A DNA stretch of 37,570 bases from Clostridia bacterium. GTDB lineage: Bacteria > Bacillota > Sulfobacillia > SLMV01. Each line of letters starts with the position of its first letter. Position 1 is the stretch's first letter. Both the position numbers and the translations under genes were made by a program. Below the pieces are notes generated by a model. It had not been told where the DNA came from. It did no database searches and saw only the letters and a list, made by a program, of their open reading frames with translations. Location: assembly GCA_003552525.1 (NCBI GenBank), contig PUNF01000214.1, positions 1-37,570 of the forward strand, given 5' to 3'. Shown here in pieces: positions 1,518 to 28,465 of this stretch.

Positions 1518-2102
1518 GTGCAATATGCAGGGCAAGTGGGCCTCATCATCGTGACTGGCCTATTGGGCGGCAGGCTGTTTCGACGGATGAACCTCCCCGA
1601 AGTCACAGCTTACCTCGTTTTGGGGTTCATCCTCGGGCCCCACGTACTGGGACTTGTCGACGGTTCCGCGCTCGTAAAGATGCACTTCATCGAGGAAATG
1701 GCCCTGGCGTTCATTGCGCTCACGATCGGCCTAGAGCTAAACCTACACGGCCTGAGAAAACGCGGATCCGGTGTTGGCATGATCGCGCTTTACCAGTCGG
1801 TGGCAACCATCGCCCTGGTCACCGTCGTGGTCGCGGGGTTGTCGGGCTCGCTACCAATGGCACTACTGCTAGGCGCCATGGCGACGGCGACCTCGCCCGG
1901 GGAAGTCCTCCTGATCATTCGAGGAGCGGGGGCGGCCGGTCCCGTCACCCGCACCTGTCTCGGCGTGGTAGCGCTGGACGATGCCCTCGGCATCCTCTTC
2001 TTCTCATTACTCATCCCCTTCATCGTAATCGCCGCCGGGGGAAACATGGTGCCAACCAACGTACTGCTGATCCCTCTGCGAGAAATCGGGGGGCACTGGT
2101 GA
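1518..2102 (+). CDS. CPA2 cation/proton antiporter, N-terminal half (frame-broken)
   Basis: This encodes the first half of a CPA2-family (KefB/NapA-like) membrane antiporter, 194 residues against about 390-420 for the family. GTG at 1518 is chosen because GGAGG lies 8 bases upstream and the next residues begin the first membrane helix, followed by the family pattern LPEVTAYLVLGFILGP. The unwound-helix motif TATSP (123-127) and the ion-binding pair Asp154-Asp155 (VALDDA) are present. The frame ends at TGA 2100-2102 just after a run of six G. The C-terminal half continues in the -1 frame from 2099. Together they match one intact antiporter. It leads an operon with a PII-like gene and a second antiporter. 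Confidence 0.85.
   Translation: MQYAGQVGLIIVTGLLGGRLFRRMNLPEVTAYLVLGFILGPHVLGLVDGSALVKMHFIEEMALAFIALTIGLELNLHGLRKRGSGVGMIALYQSVATIALVTVVVAGLSGSLPMALLLGAMATATSPGEVLLIIRGAGAAGPVTRTCLGVVALDDALGILFFSLLIPFIVIAAGGNMVPTNVLLIPLREIGGHW
2088..2102 (+). other. G6 tract and GTGA overlap where the antiporter frame breaks
   Basis: The sequence is C-GGGGGG-CACTGG-TGA. Frame 0 reads Ile-Gly-Gly-His-Trp-stop. With a seventh G, or a -1 slip on the run, it would read Ile-Gly-Gly-Ala-Leu-Val-Ile-Gly and enter the second half smoothly. Possible causes are a homopolymer sequencing error, a true one-base deletion, a phase-variable tract, recoding, or GTGA-coupled translation of two chains. Confidence 0.7.
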
Positions 2103-2686
2103 TCGGGGTCATTCTAGGGTTGTGCCTGGCCCGTGTCCTCCAAAGCGCCCCCAGTCATGGATTCGGACTCGCAGCGTCCCTCACGTTCGTCTTCTTGGCG
2201 ACGGGACTGTCCCAGCTATGGTATACCTCACCTCTTCTGACCTGCCTGACACTGGGCGTCACCGTCGTGCATCAATACCCCTACGTCAATGAACTGCTCC
2301 ACGATCTCGATGAAATAATGGCGCCACTGCATGTGGTCTTCTTTGGAGGAATCGGGGCGGCTTTTTCCCCGGCGAGTCTCACCTTATTCGCACCTGTTAC
2401 CGTCGGGTACACCATCGCACGGGCAATGGGGAAGGCCGCGGGAGTGCGGATGGGAGCAGTACATAGTGAGGCACCCGATCCCATTAGAAGATACCTCTGG
2501 CCGACCCTCTTGCCGCAAACCGGGATCAGCCTGGGCCTTATCGCGGTGGTAGGTACACACTTCCCGCAGTTGCGTGATGCTGTGGGAGCAGTCATGTTTG
2601 CTTCATCTGCCATATACATCCTGGTGGGATTCCCCCTGGCCCACCGAGCCCTGCAAAACGCACACGAGGCATCAAGGCCGGACTGA
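2099..2686 (+). CDS. CPA2 cation/proton antiporter, C-terminal half (frame-broken)
   Basis: A 195-residue, strongly hydrophobic reading frame that supplies the missing half of the antiporter at 1518-2102. It contains several membrane helices, the typical DEIMAPLHVVFFGGIGA segment near the middle, and an LLPQTGISLGLI element near the C-terminus that is usual in CPA2 proteins (PQGG/PQTG helix). The GTG at 2099 overlaps the upstream stop as GTGA, so re-initiation by translational coupling is possible, but no SD precedes it other than the G run. Natural CPA2 proteins are one chain, so a frameshifted gene is the simplest reading. The PII-like gene starts 46 bases later. Confidence 0.8.
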   Translation: MIGVILGLCLARVLQSAPSHGFGLAASLTFVFLATGLSQLWYTSPLLTCLTLGVTVVHQYPYVNELLHDLDEIMAPLHVVFFGGIGAAFSPASLTLFAPVTVGYTIARAMGKAAGVRMGAVHSEAPDPIRRYLWPTLLPQTGISLGLIAVVGTHFPQLRDAVGAVMFASSAIYILVGFPLAHRALQNAHEASRPD

Positions 2687-2732
2687 CACATATCGGCAAG
2701 TACAACCTTATTGAGAGAGGAGTTGCACATCA

Positions 2733-3095
2733 ATGGCGGCACACATGTTGCTTCTTGTGATCAACGATAGGCGTAGTCTCGACTCCATTCTCAGGGCCCT
2801 TCGAAGGGCGGGTGTTGGGGGTGCAACTGTCGTTGAAAGCACGGGAATGGGACGGACTCTATCTGGATCCGTTCCCCTGATCGGGGGGCTGCGCCACCTC
2901 AAGGAGGGCCTAAGCACCCATAACCACACCCTTTTCGCCGTGATTCCGGACGAAATGGTGTTGCAGAGGGCAACGGAACAGATCCACAAGGAAATGGGGG
3001 ATTTCTCCGGGCCAGGAAGTGGCATGATGACCGTTTGGCCACTTACGGAGGTTTGGGGTGGATCCCGGAACGCTCGGGAAGAGGACCCTCGATGA
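2733..3095 (+). CDS. PII-like signalling protein linked to cation antiporters
   Basis: A 120-residue protein with the length and pattern of the PII/GlnB ferredoxin-like fold: a first strand MLLLVINDRRSLDSIL, then a helix, then GGATVVESTGMGRTLSG (strand 2 and a T-loop-like segment), a strand HTLFAVIPDE, and a C-terminal MMTVWPLTEVWG. It lacks the classical GlnB uridylylation motif, so it is a PII-like protein rather than a nitrogen regulator. PII-like proteins usually bind nucleotides and control a neighbouring transporter. Its position between two CPA2 antiporters, with its TGA overlapping the next ATG (ATGA), suggests it senses a nucleotide or second messenger and gates antiport. Start ATG 2733 has GAGAGGAG about 10 bases upstream. 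Confidence 0.72.
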   Translation: MAAHMLLLVINDRRSLDSILRALRRAGVGGATVVESTGMGRTLSGSVPLIGGLRHLKEGLSTHNHTLFAVIPDEMVLQRATEQIHKEMGDFSGPGSGMMTVWPLTEVWGGSRNAREEDPR

Positions 3096-4273
3096 ATGTA
3101 CCCTTGATCCTAGCCAGCATCGCGGGAGCGGGAGTCGTCGCAAGGTGGATCGCGTCACGTGCCGGTTTTCCCGTCGTCGCAGCCTATCTGTTGGTCGGCA
3201 TAGGGATTGGTCCACTTGGATTGCGCATCATCACCGAGACACACCTAGATGCATTAATCCCTCTCACCAGCATCATGCTGGCATTCGTCATGCTTATGGT
3301 CGGTAGAGAATTGAACATCTCGCGGATACGCAACCAAGCACATAACGCGGGGATCATCACACTCGTGGACATGACCGTCACCTTGGCCATCGTAACAGCT
3401 AGCACCTTCAAAGTGATTGGATCCACTTGCGCTGCCCTGTTATTGGGGATTACCGCCCTGCCCACCGCACCTGCCGCAGTGATGTCAATTCTACACCAGT
3501 ACACTCCACGCGGACCCTTCACACGACTAATCACATCTGCGGTAATCCTCAATGAGGTGATCACGGCCGCAGGTGGAGCCCTGGTGATTACCTCGGTGGC
3601 CCGATGGTACGGCCCCCAGGACGGCGGAGCAGCGGGGGGGCACCCACTCCAAATGCTACTGGTCTTGCTTACCGGGACAGCGGCCGGGTTATTGTTGGTC
3701 TTGATGCTGCCGCACCTGCGGGACTATGGGCACCGAAGTGCTGCAGTGATCGGAGCGACATTGAGTCTTTATACCCTCAGCCCGATATCCCTCCTCGCTC
3801 CCCCTTTTGCCGCCCTGGTTGCCGGGGGCGTGATCGCAAATGGCCTTCGATATTCGAAAGCATTCTGGCATCGGTTTGAAGAGTTCCTCGACTACTTCTA
3901 CCTGATGTTCTTTGTCTACCTCGGTGCTCATTTGCAGCCGGCACTCATCACGAGAGCACCGGGGGTACTTGCCGTATACATGCTGGCGCGAGGCGTGGGA
4001 AAGTACATCGGGGGAGCACTCGGTTGTGTGACCATCTCCACCGTGATCCCCGGTCAAAAGCACATTGGCCTCGCACTCATGCCCCAGGGGGCTCTCGCCC
4101 TGATCCTGGCCGCAATGGCCGAGAAAATTTCTCCGTTACCGACAGGTCTTCTCTTAAACGTAGTACTCACATCGACGTTGTTCTTCGAACTGCTGGGGCC
4201 TTTCGGTACTGCATTTGCACTGCGGGCCTGTGGCGAGAGCCACGACATCCACCGCCGATCTCGAGGCGGCTGA
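3092..4273 (+). CDS. CPA2-family cation/proton antiporter, divergent ion-binding motif
   Basis: A full-length 393-residue membrane protein of the CPA2 family. Start ATG 3092 overlaps the PII-like stop (ATGA) and has GGGAAGAGGA upstream; a longer frame from 3035 is unlikely. Early family pattern: AGFPVVAAYLLVGIGIGPLGL; later, GALALILAAMAEK resembles the last conserved helices. Where the first antiporter has TSP and Asp154-Asp155, this one has TAP (residues 125-127) and Asn154-Glu155 (VILNEV). That keeps one acidic residue but changes the usual DD pair, so stoichiometry or ion preference may differ, or it may be a regulatory partner of the first antiporter. It ends 18 bases from the convergent folC. 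Confidence 0.85.
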   Translation: MNVPLILASIAGAGVVARWIASRAGFPVVAAYLLVGIGIGPLGLRIITETHLDALIPLTSIMLAFVMLMVGRELNISRIRNQAHNAGIITLVDMTVTLAIVTASTFKVIGSTCAALLLGITALPTAPAAVMSILHQYTPRGPFTRLITSAVILNEVITAAGGALVITSVARWYGPQDGGAAGGHPLQMLLVLLTGTAAGLLLVLMLPHLRDYGHRSAAVIGATLSLYTLSPISLLAPPFAALVAGGVIANGLRYSKAFWHRFEEFLDYFYLMFFVYLGAHLQPALITRAPGVLAVYMLARGVGKYIGGALGCVTISTVIPGQKHIGLALMPQGALALILAAMAEKISPLPTGLLLNVVLTSTLFFELLGPFGTAFALRACGESHDIHRRSRGG

Positions 4274-8372: not shown

Positions 8373-8384
8373 GTCGATTACTGA

Positions 8385-8642
8385 AACGGACAATGAAGGA
8401 GACGAGTAGGCGGGAATGTTGCATAACAGAGAGCCCGGGATGCTGGAATCCGGGTAGCGATTCCCCTGAATATCCCTCCGGAGTCGCGGACCGAACCACA
8501 AAGTAGGCTCCGCCGGCCGGGACCGTTATCCCCCACGAACATGCACTTCACCGAGGGGTCGCGCGGCGAGCAAATCGCCGGCGGCAAAATGGGTGGTACC
8601 GCGGTCCAGGGGGCCGTCCCAGTATTGGGATGGCCCCCTTTT
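8385..8642 (+). promoter_or_regulatory. T-box riboswitch, isoleucine-specific, controlling ileS
   Basis: This leader reads uncharged tRNA-Ile and switches between terminator and antiterminator. Stem I shows the conserved GACGAGTAG entry near 8402, an AGAGAG segment and the distal GCTGGAATCCGGG loop. The specifier loop GAATATC carries ATC (8472-8474), an Ile codon. Stem III contains GCCGGGACCGTTATC. The T-box core GGGTGGTACCGCGG (8591-8604) has the bulge TGGT, which can pair with the ACCA end of tRNA-Ile. The intrinsic terminator at 8609-8642 is the off state. Lack of charged tRNA-Ile should let transcription read through into ileS. Confidence 0.96.
8609..8642 (+). terminator. Regulated terminator of the ileS T-box
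   Basis: GGGGGCCGTCCCA (8609-8621) pairs with TGGGATGGCCCCC (8626-8638) as a 13-bp stem with one G-U and a 4-base loop, followed by TTTT. It competes with the antiterminator formed by the T-box core just upstream. Confidence 0.93.
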
Positions 8643-8696: not shown

Positions 8697-11600
8697 TTGT
8701 TTAATGCCGTTCCCGAGAACGTAAATTTTCCGCAAATGGAGGATCGAATACTGCGTTGGTGGGAAGAGGATGGAGTCCGCCGGGAGTATCTTGAGCGCAA
8801 CGATGATGCACCGGAGCACTTCTCTTTCCTGGACGGTCCCATCACGGCGAACAATCCAATGGGCGTGCATCACGCCTGGGGTCGGACCTACAAGGACTTG
8901 TTTCAAAGACACCGGACGATGCTGGGCTTCGAACAGCGCTATCAGAATGGCTTTGACTGTCAGGGCCTATGGGTCGAGGTCGAAGTAGAAAAGGCGCTCG
9001 GCATCAATTCCAAGCGAGAAATCGAGGAGTACGGCGTCGCGCGTTTTATCGAAGAATGCAAACAGCGCGTGTACAAGTACTCCGATGTCCAAACGGAGCA
9101 ATCGAAGCGACTGGGCTATTGGATGGACTGGGAGAACTCGTATTTCACCATGGCCGACGAAAATAACTACACCATCTGGCACTTCTTGAAGAAGATGCAC
9201 GCACGATCACTTATCTACAAGGGTGACGACGTGATGCCATGGTGTACCCGCTGCGGCACCGGGTTGAGCGAACACGAAATCGTCACCGAGGGATACAAGG
9301 AGCTTACGCACACCAGCGTCTACGTGCGTCTTCCCCTCCGCGATGAGGAAGCGAGCCTCCTCATCTGGACGACGACTCCCTGGACGTTGCCGGCCAACGT
9401 GGCGGTGGCCGTCAGCCCCGAGGACACATATGCGAAGGTACAAGTAGACGGAGAGCGCTTCATCCTGGCCCTAGAAGCGGCGAAACGAATCTTCGGCGAA
9501 GACGTGGCCGTCATCGACCAGTTCCCGGGAAATGCCCTACTCGGACGTAGTTATCTTGGTCCGCTCCCAGACCTCCCGGTTCAACAATCCATCGAGACGA
9601 CCATTATCCCCTGGGACGATGTCGATCCAGAAGAGGGAACCGGGTGTGTGCACATTGCACCGGGTTGTGGTCGCGAAGACTACCAGCTTGGCAAAGAACA
9701 CGACCTACCGACGCTCGCGCCCATCGACGAAAACGGCACTTACCTGCCCGGTTACGACTTCTTGAGTGGTATGGATGTGCACGAAGCCAACAGCGTAATC
9801 GTCGAGCGACTGGTGAAGGAAGGGCGGACACTGAGAACCGAGGAAATCACGCACCGGTATCCGGTCTGCTGGCGCTGTTCGCAGGAGCTTGTGTTCCGCC
9901 TCGTAGATGAATGGTTTATCGCCATGGACCCATGGCGAAAAGACATCATGGACGTCACACGCCAAATCCGATGGATCCCCGCCTTTGGTCTGCAGCGGGA
10001 GTTGGACTGGTTGCAAAACATGAGCGACTGGATGATCTCTAAGAAACGGTACTGGGGTCTCGCCCTGCCAATTTGGACATGTGAATCATGTGAGCACTTC
10101 GATGTGATCGGCGGGCCCGATGAGCTGAAAGATCGAGCCGTCGCCGGTTGGGATGATTTTGCGGGTCACTCGCCACACCGCCCGTGGATCGACGAGGTGA
10201 AGATCGCCTGCACCGAATGCAACGGGGTTATGCACCGCATCCCAGATGTCGGAAATCCCTGGCTAGATGCCGGTATCGTCGCCTACTCCACGCTGCATTA
10301 CCTCACGGATCCCTCCTATTGGGAGAAATGGTTCCCGGCGGATTTCATCACCGAATCGTTCCCGGGACAGTTTCGCAACTGGTTCTACTCCCTACTCGCC
10401 ATGAGTGCGGGGCTGACCCGGCGTCCCCCGTTTCTGACAGTCCTGGGTCACGGCCTTGTCCTGGACGAAAACGGCGAGGAAATGCACAAGAGCGGAGGGA
10501 ACGCGATCATGTTCGAAGATGCGGCCGATGAGATGGGAGCGGACGTCATGCGATGGCTGTACATGTCATCCAACCCCACATCAAATGTACTGTTCGGTTA
10601 CGGTGCGGCCGATGAGGTGCGGCGTCGATTCGTAATCCCCCTGTGGAATGTGTACTCGTTCTTCATCACGTACGCCCGCATCGATGGTTTCAACCCGGGT
10701 GAAGTGGAGGACGTCCCCGTTTCTGAACGGACACCACTGGATCGGTGGCTTCTGGCGCGCCTATATACCATCCTACGCGATGCAGATCATGCGCTTCGCG
10801 ATTACGATGCAGCTGAAGCCGCCCGCCTGCTGGAGTCGTTCACCGATGACCTGTCCAACTGGTATGTTCGCCGGTCTCGACGCCGCTTCTGGCGCAAGGG
10901 TAACGAGAACACCGACGATGATCAGCGCGACAAGCACGCAGCGTACCAAACGCTCTATGAAGCCCTGTGCCTGCTAACCCGCGCAATGGCGCCGTTTATG
11001 CCCTTTGTCACCGAGGAAATGTATCAGAACCTGGTGCGTGCCCCGTATCCAACCGCTGCGCGGAGCGTGCATCTGACGGATTATCCCGAACCGCAACCCC
11101 AGTGGCATAACCCTCGACTCGAACGGGAGATGGCCGCGGTGCGCAGGATCGCATCCCTGGGACGCGCGGCTCGTAATGCCGCGGGGTTCAAGGTGCGACA
11201 ACCATTGGAAGCGATCATGGTTGCCGGGCCCGAGTGGGACCGCACCCTCGATGCGCTGATCAAAGAGGAACTGAACGTTCGACAAATCCGGGTGGTCTCC
11301 GACGAAAGCGATTTCATCAGCTACGAGGTGAAACCGGATTACTCGGTGCTCGGTCCTCGCTTCCAGTCCGATATGCCGCGGGTCGCCCAGGCGGTTTCCC
11401 AGGAAGATGCCCGCACACTTGCTGAGAAGGTCCGCGCCGGTGAGCCGATACGCGTGGGCGACGAATTCGACCTGGAACCCGAGGATCTCATCGTTCGCAC
11501 GCACAACCGAGAAGGCTACGCTGCTGCCGCAGAGGGTGGTTTCACCGTCGCCGTGAGCACCGAGCTGACCGAAGAATTGCGTCGGGAGGGGCTGGCCCGC

Positions 11601-24479: not shown

Positions 24480-25928
24480 TCATCTAAAGACCAATAATGC
24501 GACGAGAAAGACCACCAAGATCATCATGAGGTTCCCCTGTAGGCGATCCTCGGTGATACGAGCAAGTGAATAGGCCACATACTCCATCAATACGAGGCCG
24601 CGCCGATAGAGTGCATCCACGTCAGGGGGCTCGGGAGCCCTCGATAGCAGCTGCCGTGCCACGGTAAAAAACGCAACTCCTGCCACGGGTGGCCACGCAC
24701 CCGCGGTGAGCCCCGAAAGTGTGAAGGGATCGGGCGCCGGACCCGCATGGGGCAAGTAGCCTGCGAGGATGTCCGGGCGCAGCCCAGTGGCCAGGCAAAA
24801 CACCGCGAGGAGTAGCATGGGAATCGCCATCCCCGGATCCACTTCTTTCGGCCCACTCGACACCGTGCGATTCTCGGGATCTCGCAGGTACGTGTACCAA
24901 AGAAGTTTCATAAACGAAGCACCGGTGCCGATTCCAGCGATCGTAAGAGCATGCAATACGACCGGTTGTCCATCAAGGGCAAGCTTGAGCCAATACTTGC
25001 TGACAAATCCATTGAACGGGGGTACACCGGAAATGGATAGGGCACCCACGAGCGCACAGATAAACGTGAGCGGCATATAGCGGATGAGCCCACCCAGGGA
25101 TGGGAGATGATCGCTGCCCACTCGATAGATCACGGCACCTGCAGCCATAAAGAGCAGCGTCTTGTAGGCAATATGATTGATCACGTGTAGGGATCCCGCG
25201 TCAATACCGGAAGCAGTAGCCAGGCCCACACCCGCCACCATGTAGCCCACCTGGCTCACGATGCTATAGCCCAGAACACGTCGCGAATACTTCTGCAGCA
25301 GCGCAAGTAGTACGCCGACGAGTGCCATCGCCGCTCCCATGTAGGGAATCGCCGCAACTCCGGGTAACAGTCGGATGATCGCGTATACCCCGACCTTCGT
25401 GGTGAAGCCCGAAAGAACAACGGAGACCGACGGGGAGGCACTTGCATAGGCATCGGGCACCCAGGTGTGGAAGGGGATTGCGCCAACCTTGATGCCGATA
25501 CCCAACATGAAGAATGGAATCGCAGCATTTGTGGGAGCAGAAAATGCCATGCTCCCGGTTGCCGAAACCTGTACCAGGACGCCCACCAACATCCCCGCCC
25601 CGGCTATCACGTGGTAGAGCAGATAGCGAAATCCCGCGTTCCTGCTCCGGGCCGTTCCGGCGGAAACGATCATCAGGTAGGATACGATCAGCATCAGTTC
25701 CCAGAAGATGAGAAACGTCAGCATGTTGCCGGCGGTAACACAACCCAATGATGCAAGCACGAACACCAGGGAGAGCATTGCTCTCTTGATGGGCGGCCGG
25801 CTGGCTAGGGTGTAAAGCAAGCCCATGGTACCAACCATCACAAAAGCGATGACAAATATCATGTTCACCGCATCAATACCAAGGGCAAATCGTCCAAATC
25901 CGAGTGACTGAATCGCATCCTGGAGCAC
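24480..25928 (-). CDS. mrpD: Mrp antiporter large subunit, MrpD/NuoM-like (second copy)
   Basis: About 482 residues, polytopic, proton-translocating fold shared with complex I NuoL/M/N. Key residues: Glu in NMLTFLIFWELMLIVSYLM (TM5) and Lys in IKVGAIPFHTWVPDAY (TM7), then KVGVYAIIRLLP, and HVINHIAYKTLLFMAAGAV (TM12 His/Lys). GTG 25928 fits the SD (AGGTGA) better than the GTG 9 bases earlier, which gives 485 residues. With the separate MbhD- and MbhE-type parts it may replace a full MrpA. A charged C-terminal tail ends in one more membrane helix. Confidence 0.9.
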   Translation of the reverse strand: MLQDAIQSLGFGRFALGIDAVNMIFVIAFVMVGTMGLLYTLASRPPIKRAMLSLVFVLASLGCVTAGNMLTFLIFWELMLIVSYLMIVSAGTARSRNAGFRYLLYHVIAGAGMLVGVLVQVSATGSMAFSAPTNAAIPFFMLGIGIKVGAIPFHTWVPDAYASASPSVSVVLSGFTTKVGVYAIIRLLPGVAAIPYMGAAMALVGVLLALLQKYSRRVLGYSIVSQVGYMVAGVGLATASGIDAGSLHVINHIAYKTLLFMAAGAVIYRVGSDHLPSLGGLIRYMPLTFICALVGALSISGVPPFNGFVSKYWLKLALDGQPVVLHALTIAGIGTGASFMKLLWYTYLRDPENRTVSSGPKEVDPGMAIPMLLLAVFCLATGLRPDILAGYLPHAGPAPDPFTLSGLTAGAWPPVAGVAFFTVARQLLSRAPEPPDVDALYRRGLVLMEYVAYSLARITEDRLQGNLMMILVVFLVALLVFR

Positions 25929-25965
25929 GATACTCACCTCGCTTTCTTCGGTAGCCGGGTGTTCA

Positions 25966-27408
25966 CTACCCGACCAAGTAATCCGCTATGGTTGCGAATA
26001 TGCGCGCAAGATTCCCGGCCCATACCAGTGTGGCAATCGAACCCACGGCCGTTACCACCAATACGATAGTCGTCTGCCAGGGCGAGATGCTCACATCATC
26101 GGGTTCTCTCTCGGAAGGTGCATAAAGCACCTGGTATACACGACCGTAATAAATGGCCGACAGTACGGCCCCAGCAGGCAAAACTGCGGCGATCCCGATC
26201 ATTCCAGCATCAATCGCTGCAAACATGATCATGATCTTACTGGCAAAAGAACCGAAAGGAGGCAAGCCAATCAATCCGGCCGTGGACATGGCAAAAGTAA
26301 TTCCGGCCGGCCGGGTCCGCAACGCAGCACCCCGCAGACCACTCAACTCGAAGCTACCATCCGCGATACAGCCCACGGAGAAGAACGCTCCCGCCTTCAT
26401 CAACATGTGGTTTAGCGAGTGAAACAGGGCGCCGGCGAATCCGAGAGCCCCACCGATGCCGATACCCAATGCGATATACCCCATGTGCGCGACGCTAGAG
26501 CAAGCCAGAATACGCTTGACATTGCCCTGTCCCATGGCGAGCACATTGCCCCCGATCACCGTCAAGACACCGATCACCAGTAGTAGTGTGCGAACGTCCA
26601 AGCTGCCATCACCAAAACCAAAGATGGGCAGCAAGCGCATGAGCATGTATACTCCGTTTTTCAATAGCACGCCTGATAATAGGGCGCTGATGGGCGATAC
26701 CGCCTCGGCGTGGGCCGGAGGCAGCCAGCTGTGGAAAGGTATCAAGGCTACCTTCACCGACAAACCGATGACAAAGGATCCAACAATACTCGCACGCGTC
26801 AACTCTGGAATGGTGTCAAAGACCGCTGCAACCTCACCCATATTGAGGCTACCCGTGGCGGCGTAAACCAGGATGATTCCCAGTAGGATCAATGCGCTGG
26901 AAACCAGCGTAAACACCATGTAATAGAGGGACGCAAACAATGCGGTTCCCCGTCGACTCACCGCAACGAGGGGAAAGCTCGCAATCGCTGACATCTCGAT
27001 GAATACGTAGAGGTTGAAAAAGTCGGCCGTAAGAATAATGCCCATGATACCCGAGGCCACGATGAACAAGAGTACATAGTACTTGCTCTCGGCCGCCTCC
27101 ATATAATCTTGCGAATACAAAATAACGAGCAGAATTCCAAGCCCCATGATCCCAGCAAACGCCGCCGAGAGCGCATCGAGTTCTAGCACGATGCCTACAT
27201 CGGGACCCCAGCCCCCGAGCGGGTAGATCACCCGGTCGACACCCATCGCATGATATCCCCAGATCATCATCCCCACCAGGCCCGCGTATACGAGTCCCAT
27301 CGCCGTAACCGTAATCCGGCGCACGGACGGAAACAGCATGGAAATCAGCGGTATGAGGAAAGCAAATAGCAATGGAATTGCGATGACCAAGATGGGCAAA
27401 TGGCTCAC
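25966..27408 (-). CDS. mrpD: Mrp antiporter large subunit, MrpD/NuoM-like (first copy)
   Basis: 480 residues of the same proton-pump fold. Seen: TADFFNLYVFIEMSAIASFPL (TM5 Glu), VKVALIPFHSWLPPAHAEAVSPISALLSG (TM7 Lys, highly conserved), LKNGVYMLMRLLP, and SLNHMLMKAGAFF (TM12). It is closer to canonical MrpD/MnhD than its neighbour. GTG 27408 overlaps the mrpC stop as GTGA. A gap of 37 bases separates it from the second copy. Confidence 0.93.
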   Translation of the reverse strand: MSHLPILVIAIPLLFAFLIPLISMLFPSVRRITVTAMGLVYAGLVGMMIWGYHAMGVDRVIYPLGGWGPDVGIVLELDALSAAFAGIMGLGILLVILYSQDYMEAAESKYYVLLFIVASGIMGIILTADFFNLYVFIEMSAIASFPLVAVSRRGTALFASLYYMVFTLVSSALILLGIILVYAATGSLNMGEVAAVFDTIPELTRASIVGSFVIGLSVKVALIPFHSWLPPAHAEAVSPISALLSGVLLKNGVYMLMRLLPIFGFGDGSLDVRTLLLVIGVLTVIGGNVLAMGQGNVKRILACSSVAHMGYIALGIGIGGALGFAGALFHSLNHMLMKAGAFFSVGCIADGSFELSGLRGAALRTRPAGITFAMSTAGLIGLPPFGSFASKIMIMFAAIDAGMIGIAAVLPAGAVLSAIYYGRVYQVLYAPSEREPDDVSISPWQTTIVLVVTAVGSIATLVWAGNLARIFATIADYLVG

Positions 27409-27752
27409 TGCATTTTGCTCCTAATCTCCTCGATATCTACCGTACCGTAATGTCGATAGATTTGAATGATCAAACTAAGCATCAGCGCCGTCGTACTGGC
27501 AGCGATGACGATGGCGGTAAGGGTAAGAGCATGCGGTATGGGATCGGCGATCCCCGGCCCCGTGGTCGGCCCCATGAGCGGTGCGAGGTCCCCGGGGCTG
27601 TAGGAAAGCCGGACGAGAAACAAGAGGAGACCGGCCTCCATCACGTTAATCCCGACGGCAATCTTAATGAGATTACTCTCCGTCAGGATGCAATACAGCC
27701 CCATTCCAAATAGCAACAGCACAACCCAGTACGCCAAGGACAGACCCATCAT
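27405..27752 (-). CDS. mrpC: Mrp Na+/H+ antiporter subunit C (NuoK-like)
   Basis: 115 residues, three helices, of the MnhC/NuoK family: GLYCILTESNLIKIAVGINVMEAG with the conserved membrane Glu residues, and DPIPHALTLTAIVIAASTTAL. ATG 27752 overlaps the mrpB stop (ATGA). Standard size. Confidence 0.94.
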   Translation of the reverse strand: MMGLSLAYWVVLLLFGMGLYCILTESNLIKIAVGINVMEAGLLLFLVRLSYSPGDLAPLMGPTTGPGIADPIPHALTLTAIVIAASTTALMLSLIIQIYRHYGTVDIEEIRSKMQ

Positions 27753-28465
27753 TCCGGCTCCTTCTTCACCATGCTGTAAAATACCAGCGCCAGACCGGCG
27801 CCGACTTTGAGGCCGATGGCGACATTGAGTAGGGGTATCGCGCCACCACTCAACACCGATCCCGGATGTCCGCGGAAGAATCCCGCCCCGAGATTAGAGA
27901 GAAAATACTCGCCCGAGAATACCCCGACGAACGCAACCGTCATGAACAGCAGGGCCGCGGACGATTCCAGGGCCGTCTTGAAGCGGGGATCCAATAGACG
28001 ACGCTCTTCCTGCAGGCCATAGACAATCGAAATCAAGATCGTCAAGGTTGCCAGGATCACCCCACCCTGAAACCCTCCGCCCGGGGAGATGTGTCCATAG
28101 ACGACGATGTACATACCCGCGACGAACACGAAGGGGCCGATTACGTCGAGGCTTCGTTTCGCCAGTATCGATAATCCAATCGCGGATGGGTGTAGCGGTG
28201 CATGATAGAACATGAGCACGACACCGGCAACGGCAGCAAAAATCACCGTGGCCTCACCGAGCGTATCGAACGCACGGTAATCGAACAGTACGGCTGCGAC
28301 AAGGTTTGTCGCGCCGGTTTCCACGACACCCTTACCGATAATCCTCTGGGTGAGCGCCGACTGGCTTACGCGTTCATCGGGAGAAGGGAGCTCGGCAATG
28401 GCACCGACAAGTGCCAGTGTGAGCACGAGGATAAGAATCGCGGCAGCGATCTTTCGGAGACGCAA
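27749..28465 (-). CDS. mrpB: MbhE-MnhB fusion subunit of the Mrp antiporter
   Basis: 238 residues in two parts. Residues 1-85 correspond to MbhE, the last C-terminal segment of MrpA: VVETGATNLVAAVLFDYRAFDTLGEATVIF. Residues 100-238 are MnhB/MrpB: KRSLDVIGPFVFVAGMYIVVYGHISPGGGFQGGVILA. TTG 28465 is the start, with GAGGAGG 9 bases upstream. The arrangement (MbhD, then an MbhE-MrpB fusion) is the one of membrane-bound hydrogenase-related Mrp modules in anaerobes, but no hydrogenase gene is in the window. Confidence 0.88.
   Translation of the reverse strand: MRLRKIAAAILILVLTLALVGAIAELPSPDERVSQSALTQRIIGKGVVETGATNLVAAVLFDYRAFDTLGEATVIFAAVAGVVLMFYHAPLHPSAIGLSILAKRSLDVIGPFVFVAGMYIVVYGHISPGGGFQGGVILATLTILISIVYGLQEERRLLDPRFKTALESSAALLFMTVAFVGVFSGEYFLSNLGAGFFRGHPGSVLSGGAIPLLNVAIGLKVGAGLALVFYSMVKKEPE

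Follow-up and report, generated by a model that had tools for sequence, protein, structure and literature searches.

The PII-like protein encoded between two CPA2 antiporter genes in this genome very probably regulates the antiporter beside it. Its relatives across Bacillota almost always adjoin an antiporter gene, and it is therefore probably a clip-on antiporter regulator. The locus as a whole likely encodes an antiporter with a detachable sensor, in which the PII protein would respond to an adenine nucleotide, with c-di-AMP as the tentative best candidate.

The window, that is, the whole stretch of 37,570 nucleotides that was analyzed, lies on contig C208 of a 2.3 Mb draft genome with a completeness of 92%. 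Three plus-strand cistrons follow one another in it: ant1, the first antiporter, in two pieces (1518-2686), the gene of the PII-like protein (2733-3095), and ant2, the second antiporter (3092-4273). The PII-like gene encodes a putative regulatory subunit of 120 amino acids and is preceded by GAGAGGAG at 2715-2722. The start codon of ant2 overlaps the stop codon of the PII gene in an ATGA at 3092-3095, which bears out the translational coupling proposed in the initial annotation. The PII protein had also been described there as lying between two CPA2 antiporters; the PII fold and the PF00999 assignment of its partners agree with this, whereas the first antiporter turned out not to be a single open reading frame. 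Upstream of the operon there are a tRNA cluster and a divergent CheW-like gene, and the convergent gene 3' of ant2 reads as a folylpolyglutamate synthase-like gene. A possible sigma-70-like promoter of the operon (TTGACT-17-TATTCT, plus strand, 1431-1459) was found by a consensus scan with agreement at 9 of 12 positions; the match is weak, as four such sites were found and 1.8 were expected in shuffled sequence. Elsewhere in the window, the minus strand encodes Mrp/MBH-type antiporter subunits at 24480-28465 (Proton_antipo_M twice, MnhB), which together with an Rnf cluster at about 12.5-18.6 kb suggest ion-gradient energetics. A T-box leader at 8384-8624 lies just 5' of a gene at 8697 that looks like isoleucyl-tRNA synthetase.

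The N-terminal part of ant1 (1518-2102, plus strand) begins with a GTG preceded by GGAGG at 1505-1509, ends with TGA, matches PF00999 and retains the DD motif (VVALDD). The C-terminal part (2099-2686, plus strand) begins with a GTG that overlaps this stop codon; it scores 25.7 bits against PF00999, just below the cut-off of 26.2 (profile positions 186-307), and is 62-66% identical to the genes of the sister species. The frame breaks at a run of six G residues (2088-2093, plus strand), where a -1 shift would rejoin the halves. In both sister species the homolog is a single intact open reading frame of 395-415 amino acids with neither the G6 run nor the break, and a programmed frameshift or functional split is accordingly not favored. 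Since both halves keep the codon-position conservation pattern of the intact sister genes, which is a purifying pattern, we read the single-base frameshift as either a very recent mutation or an error of the draft assembly (one base was inserted into ant1 by a script, for alignment only). The best matches of the sister gene are NapA (4bwz) and KefC.

The ant2 gene (3092-4273, plus strand) encodes an antiporter of 393 amino acids that lacks an RCK domain, matches PF00999 over residues 16-377 (76.9 bits, E=1.8e-21) and has no sequence match in the PDB. It is the fastest-diverging of the three operon genes, and in its TM5 (window positions 3550-3565) NE (ILNEV) stands at the site of the aspartate pair (DD or ND) of CPA2 antiporters, taking the place of the DD that both sister species carry and of the D-D found in most relatives. 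In a phylogenetic tree the ant1 proteins of the genus make up one clade and its ant2 proteins another, and the two clades are distant and not sisters. The tree thus rejects a recent origin of ant2 as a tandem copy of ant1, although the long branch of ant2 makes its placement unsure. One alternative is that ant1 and ant2 pair as a heterodimer to which the PII protein belongs as a third subunit, ant2 being a non-transporting or differently selective partner. The retention of the triple in all three species of the genus that were searched and the contrast between DD in ant1 and NE in the ant2 of the window would fit such a complex, but a single antiporter suffices elsewhere, ant2 of both sister species keeps DD, and the two proteins come from distant clades; we consider this alternative unlikely.

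The assignment of the small protein to the PII superfamily is borderline by sequence and secure by predicted fold. Its score against PF00543 is 24.9 bits, with a cut-off of 25.0, while 75 of its 85 relatives match this family (E<=0.01). In AlphaFold2 models of the 120-residue protein (mean pLDDT 77 with 17 homologs and 82.8 with an 85-row alignment) the core is beta-alpha-beta-beta-alpha-beta and the T-loop is poorly ordered. In Foldseek searches of the PDB the best 50 matches listed all belong to the PII superfamily, with GlnK1, PII and SbtB at the top, and the two models yielded 183 and 173 matches at E<=0.001. The PII-like fold claimed at the outset is thus upheld by the models. The loops are built as in classical PII and not as in PstA, with a T-loop of about 24 residues, which is the classical length, and a short B-loop. 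T32 (100%) and G38 are invariant across the family, and G30, A31, N64 (87%), T66, G97, F100 (87%), P103 and G109 are conserved in 85-95% of its members.

The best sequence-profile matches of the protein are GlnB and GlnK (E about 1e-5), and these matches, along with the classical T-loop length, are what would be expected of a classical nitrogen PII protein, responsive to 2-oxoglutarate and ATP, that had been recruited to control an antiporter. We regard such a recruitment as very improbable. The uridylylation motif YRGAEY and the B-loop motif GDGK(I/V)F, searched as PROSITE-type patterns, occur in 0 of 99 family members, basic residues are missing at the positions that align with K90, R101 and R103, the ATP-phosphate residues are lost, and neither AmtB nor GlnB/GlnK was found in the window genome, which is 92% complete. 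On motifs and genome content the identity of a classical nitrogen PII is rejected, and the earlier proposal that the system is distinct from nitrogen-linked PII systems is supported. The protein is not an ortholog of PstA either: PF06153 is absent from the families listed for the 85 members (E<=0.01), and the PstA of this genome is a different gene, on contig C57, which also accounts for a weak third PF00543 match in the genome.

In a profile search, a wide score gap separates the PII family from the next matches. Of 399 genomes that sample the phylum, 76 carry the family, which is present in 60 of 268 genera. The complete antiporter-PII-antiporter triple is present in both sister species, and thus in 3 of the 3 species of the genus that were searched, while the usual unit outside the genus consists of one antiporter and one PII gene. 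A second locus of the antiporter-PII type occurs in the window genus and also in two further genera of its taxonomic family. A same-strand CPA2 antiporter gene lies within 600 bp at 88 of 98 loci of the PII family (downstream at 59, upstream at 24, and two antiporters at five). Genomes carry between one and four PF00999 genes, and adjacency by chance would therefore be expected at less than 1% of loci; the arrangement is not due to chance. The gene order is thus conserved well beyond this genome, both in the triples of the sister species and at the 88 loci across the phylum, so that the refuting outcome named in the initial annotation, a gene order confined to this genome, did not occur. The same adjacency test gave 0 of 27 for other PII types (PstA, 0 of 10 loci; other PII-like families, 0 of 17). 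The 17-locus control leaves out L040 (the same place as L029), where a distant PII-like relative does adjoin a CPA2 antiporter, and the pairing is therefore not unique to the PII family. No gene fusions between PII and antiporter were found among the loci, and a search for another recurring partner gene returned ABC ATPases, a generic family, as the only broad cluster.

A few members of the family are orphans or lie beside other carriers. Among the ten exceptions, three loci are near contig ends (L005, L118, L148), one has its antiporter on the opposite strand (L156), four make up an orphan subfamily within one taxonomic family, and the remaining two, both from the same genome, are orphans. 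The orphan paralogs at L157, L161, L164 and L165, all from one taxonomic family and without an antiporter beside them, have common neighbors, for example a glutamate-synthase-like flavoprotein. In Acetoanaerobium noterae (L180, 2389-4357) the family PII gene follows what by eye is a YfcC-like carrier and not a CPA2 antiporter. Among other PII-like genes, more distant ones at L028, L038 and L039 adjoin ArsB/NhaD-like carriers, which belong to another superfamily, and may represent a parallel case of PII-transporter pairing; those at L044, L045, L046 and L047 adjoin DUF1538-like membrane proteins; these carriers and membrane proteins were also recognized by eye.

The exceptions bear on a further alternative, namely that PII and antiporter are linked by co-expression only, the PII protein acting on something else, or that the locus is decaying in this genome. 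Orphan paralogs exist, ant1 is frameshifted, and ant2 evolves faster and lacks DD, all of which such a reading would accommodate. However, the family extends over 60 genera with adjacency kept at nearly all loci read, the adjacency survives changes of gene order and of partner subfamily, and both halves of ant1 show a purifying codon pattern, so that we judge this reading improbable. In genomes with two pairs (for example G204, G381, G244, G206) the PII proteins group by antiporter clade, each being closest to the PII proteins paired with antiporters of the matching clade, while G195 encodes two near-identical PII proteins (distance 0.29) beside antiporters of unrelated subfamilies (4.97). The two genes are thus inherited as a pair, but the sensor can switch to an antiporter of a different type; the G195 pattern is as expected of a plug-in sensor. 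The divergent antiporter clade is paired with PII proteins that do not cluster.

The partner antiporters themselves suggest what the PII protein may do. PF00999 was matched by 46 of the 47 that were scanned, and RCK or TrkA domains by 0 of 47. They are also short, with a median of about 402 amino acids and a maximum of about 428. Given this small size and the absence of RCK matches, the PII protein appears to stand in for RCK in trans, and we infer that a separately encoded PII protein takes the place of the RCK domain of the antiporter. In the mechanism that we propose, the membrane part would be a CPA2 cation/proton antiporter without the C-terminal RCK gate, and the sensor would be a separate PII-fold protein, probably a trimer, made from the same operon. 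An adenine nucleotide would bind at the interface of the PII subunits. In one nucleotide state the T-loops would dock on the antiporter from its cytoplasmic side and slow exchange, much as SbtB docks on SbtA and GlnK on AmtB, and a change of ligand would release the PII protein. That control is inhibitory is suggested by analogy with these systems. The T-loop carries a conserved P-(I/L)-F-x-x-L-R stretch, a candidate for the docking element. Within the window, the module would comprise one PII protein amid two non-sister antiporters. CPA antiporters are dimers and PII proteins trimers. Since PII regulation seems to be confined to transporters that are trimers (PMC10710835), this mismatch in symmetry counts as evidence against the proposal.

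We consider it reasonably likely that the ligand of the PII protein is an adenine nucleotide, and c-di-AMP in particular is, tentatively, the best candidate. In hhalign comparisons T32 and N64 of the family align with T28 and N41 of PstA, in a profile match that is weak and spans part of the chain. Mutations of T28 and N41 in PstA weaken c-di-AMP binding (PMC4316997). The conserved F100, aligned by eye with F99 of PstA, is T in the window protein. The window genome encodes a diadenylate cyclase in addition to its own PstA. At six loci from two taxonomic families, all belonging to one antiporter clade, a c-di-AMP riboswitch (Rfam RF00379) lies directly upstream of the antiporter-PII operon, and it is the only c-di-AMP riboswitch found in each of the four f55-family genomes that have a match. 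A hairpin and then a U-rich run come right after the aptamer in these relatives, which appears consistent with a termination-type off-switch, the type known for the c-di-AMP riboswitch (PMC6488665). The riboswitch at the head of the operon indicates membership of the antiporter-PII genes in the c-di-AMP regulon of those lineages and is not proof of c-di-AMP binding by the PII protein. The three genomes of the window genus (G000-G002) yielded no c-di-AMP riboswitch, and neither this riboswitch nor another known RNA was detected at the window operon, even at a permissive threshold. Control by a nucleotide or second messenger, as originally suggested, thus gains indirect support from residue conservation and from the riboswitches on the operons of relatives.

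The same antiporter-bound sensor might instead read energy charge (AMP/ADP/ATP) or cAMP, as SbtB does. The monomer fold is close to that of SbtB (target TM-scores mostly 0.67-0.81), the adenine pocket retains its threonine and glycines but the triphosphate clamp has disappeared, which is compatible with AMP or cAMP, and SbtB complexes have been solved with AMP, cAMP, ADP, ATP and c-di-AMP. However, six operons carry c-di-AMP riboswitches, and N64 matches a c-di-AMP contact of PstA, and this possibility appears to us somewhat unlikely. With c-di-AMP as the ligand, the module would be a further branch of the c-di-AMP circuit that governs K+ and osmotic balance. In its most far-reaching form the proposal is speculative and rather doubtful: a widespread family of PII-fold c-di-AMP receptors would provide interchangeable gating subunits, encoded by separate genes, for dimeric CPA2 antiporters, replacing RCK and breaking the trimer-only pattern, with one PII protein serving a hetero-antiporter pair in the window genus. 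Regulation of CPA2 antiporters by this PII family would in itself extend PII control to a new class of transporter, in about a fifth of the sampled genomes of the phylum; a 3:2 symmetry question would arise, and bacteria with RCK-less antiporters would have a candidate c-di-AMP receptor for ion homeostasis.

PII proteins are well known as regulators of transporters. A 2023 review names AmtB/Amt1, nitrate and urea ABC importers, and SbtA as their transporter targets (PMC10710835). We found no description of a PII family paired with CPA2 antiporters in the open-access literature that was searched. The parts are of known kinds, and what is new, as far as the open literature searched goes, is a distinct PII family paired with CPA2 antiporters. 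The module resembles the cyanobacterial system of the PII-like protein SbtB and the bicarbonate transporter SbtA in its PII fold, but its partner is a CPA2 antiporter, a type that is normally dimeric, instead of SbtA, and the window protein shares only 11-16% identity with SbtB chains. For SbtB, docking on a membrane carrier under nucleotide control is described (PMC10710835), and the PII protein here would act likewise. The likeness to GlnK-AmtB lies in the fold, the T-loop length, the two-gene operon with a transporter and the PF00543 similarity, whereas the PII protein here lacks the uridylylation motif, the GDGK loop and the phosphate-binding residues, and its genome yielded no AmtB. With the c-di-AMP-binding PstA/DarA (PF06153) the family shares the equivalents of T28 and N41, in a genome that has c-di-AMP signaling genes. 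However, the T' loop of PstA, which contains GGFL, is short and its B' loop is long, unlike the T-loop of about 24 residues and the short B-loop of the family; moreover, PstA is a separate gene in this genome, and the PstA loci of relatives are not beside an antiporter. CpaA and KefC, which are RCK-gated CPA2 proteins, share the membrane domain, and CpaA is gated by c-di-AMP via RCK_C (PMC5575661). In those proteins the sensor is present in cis, while here there is no RCK domain and a PII-fold protein encoded next door appears to be its substitute.
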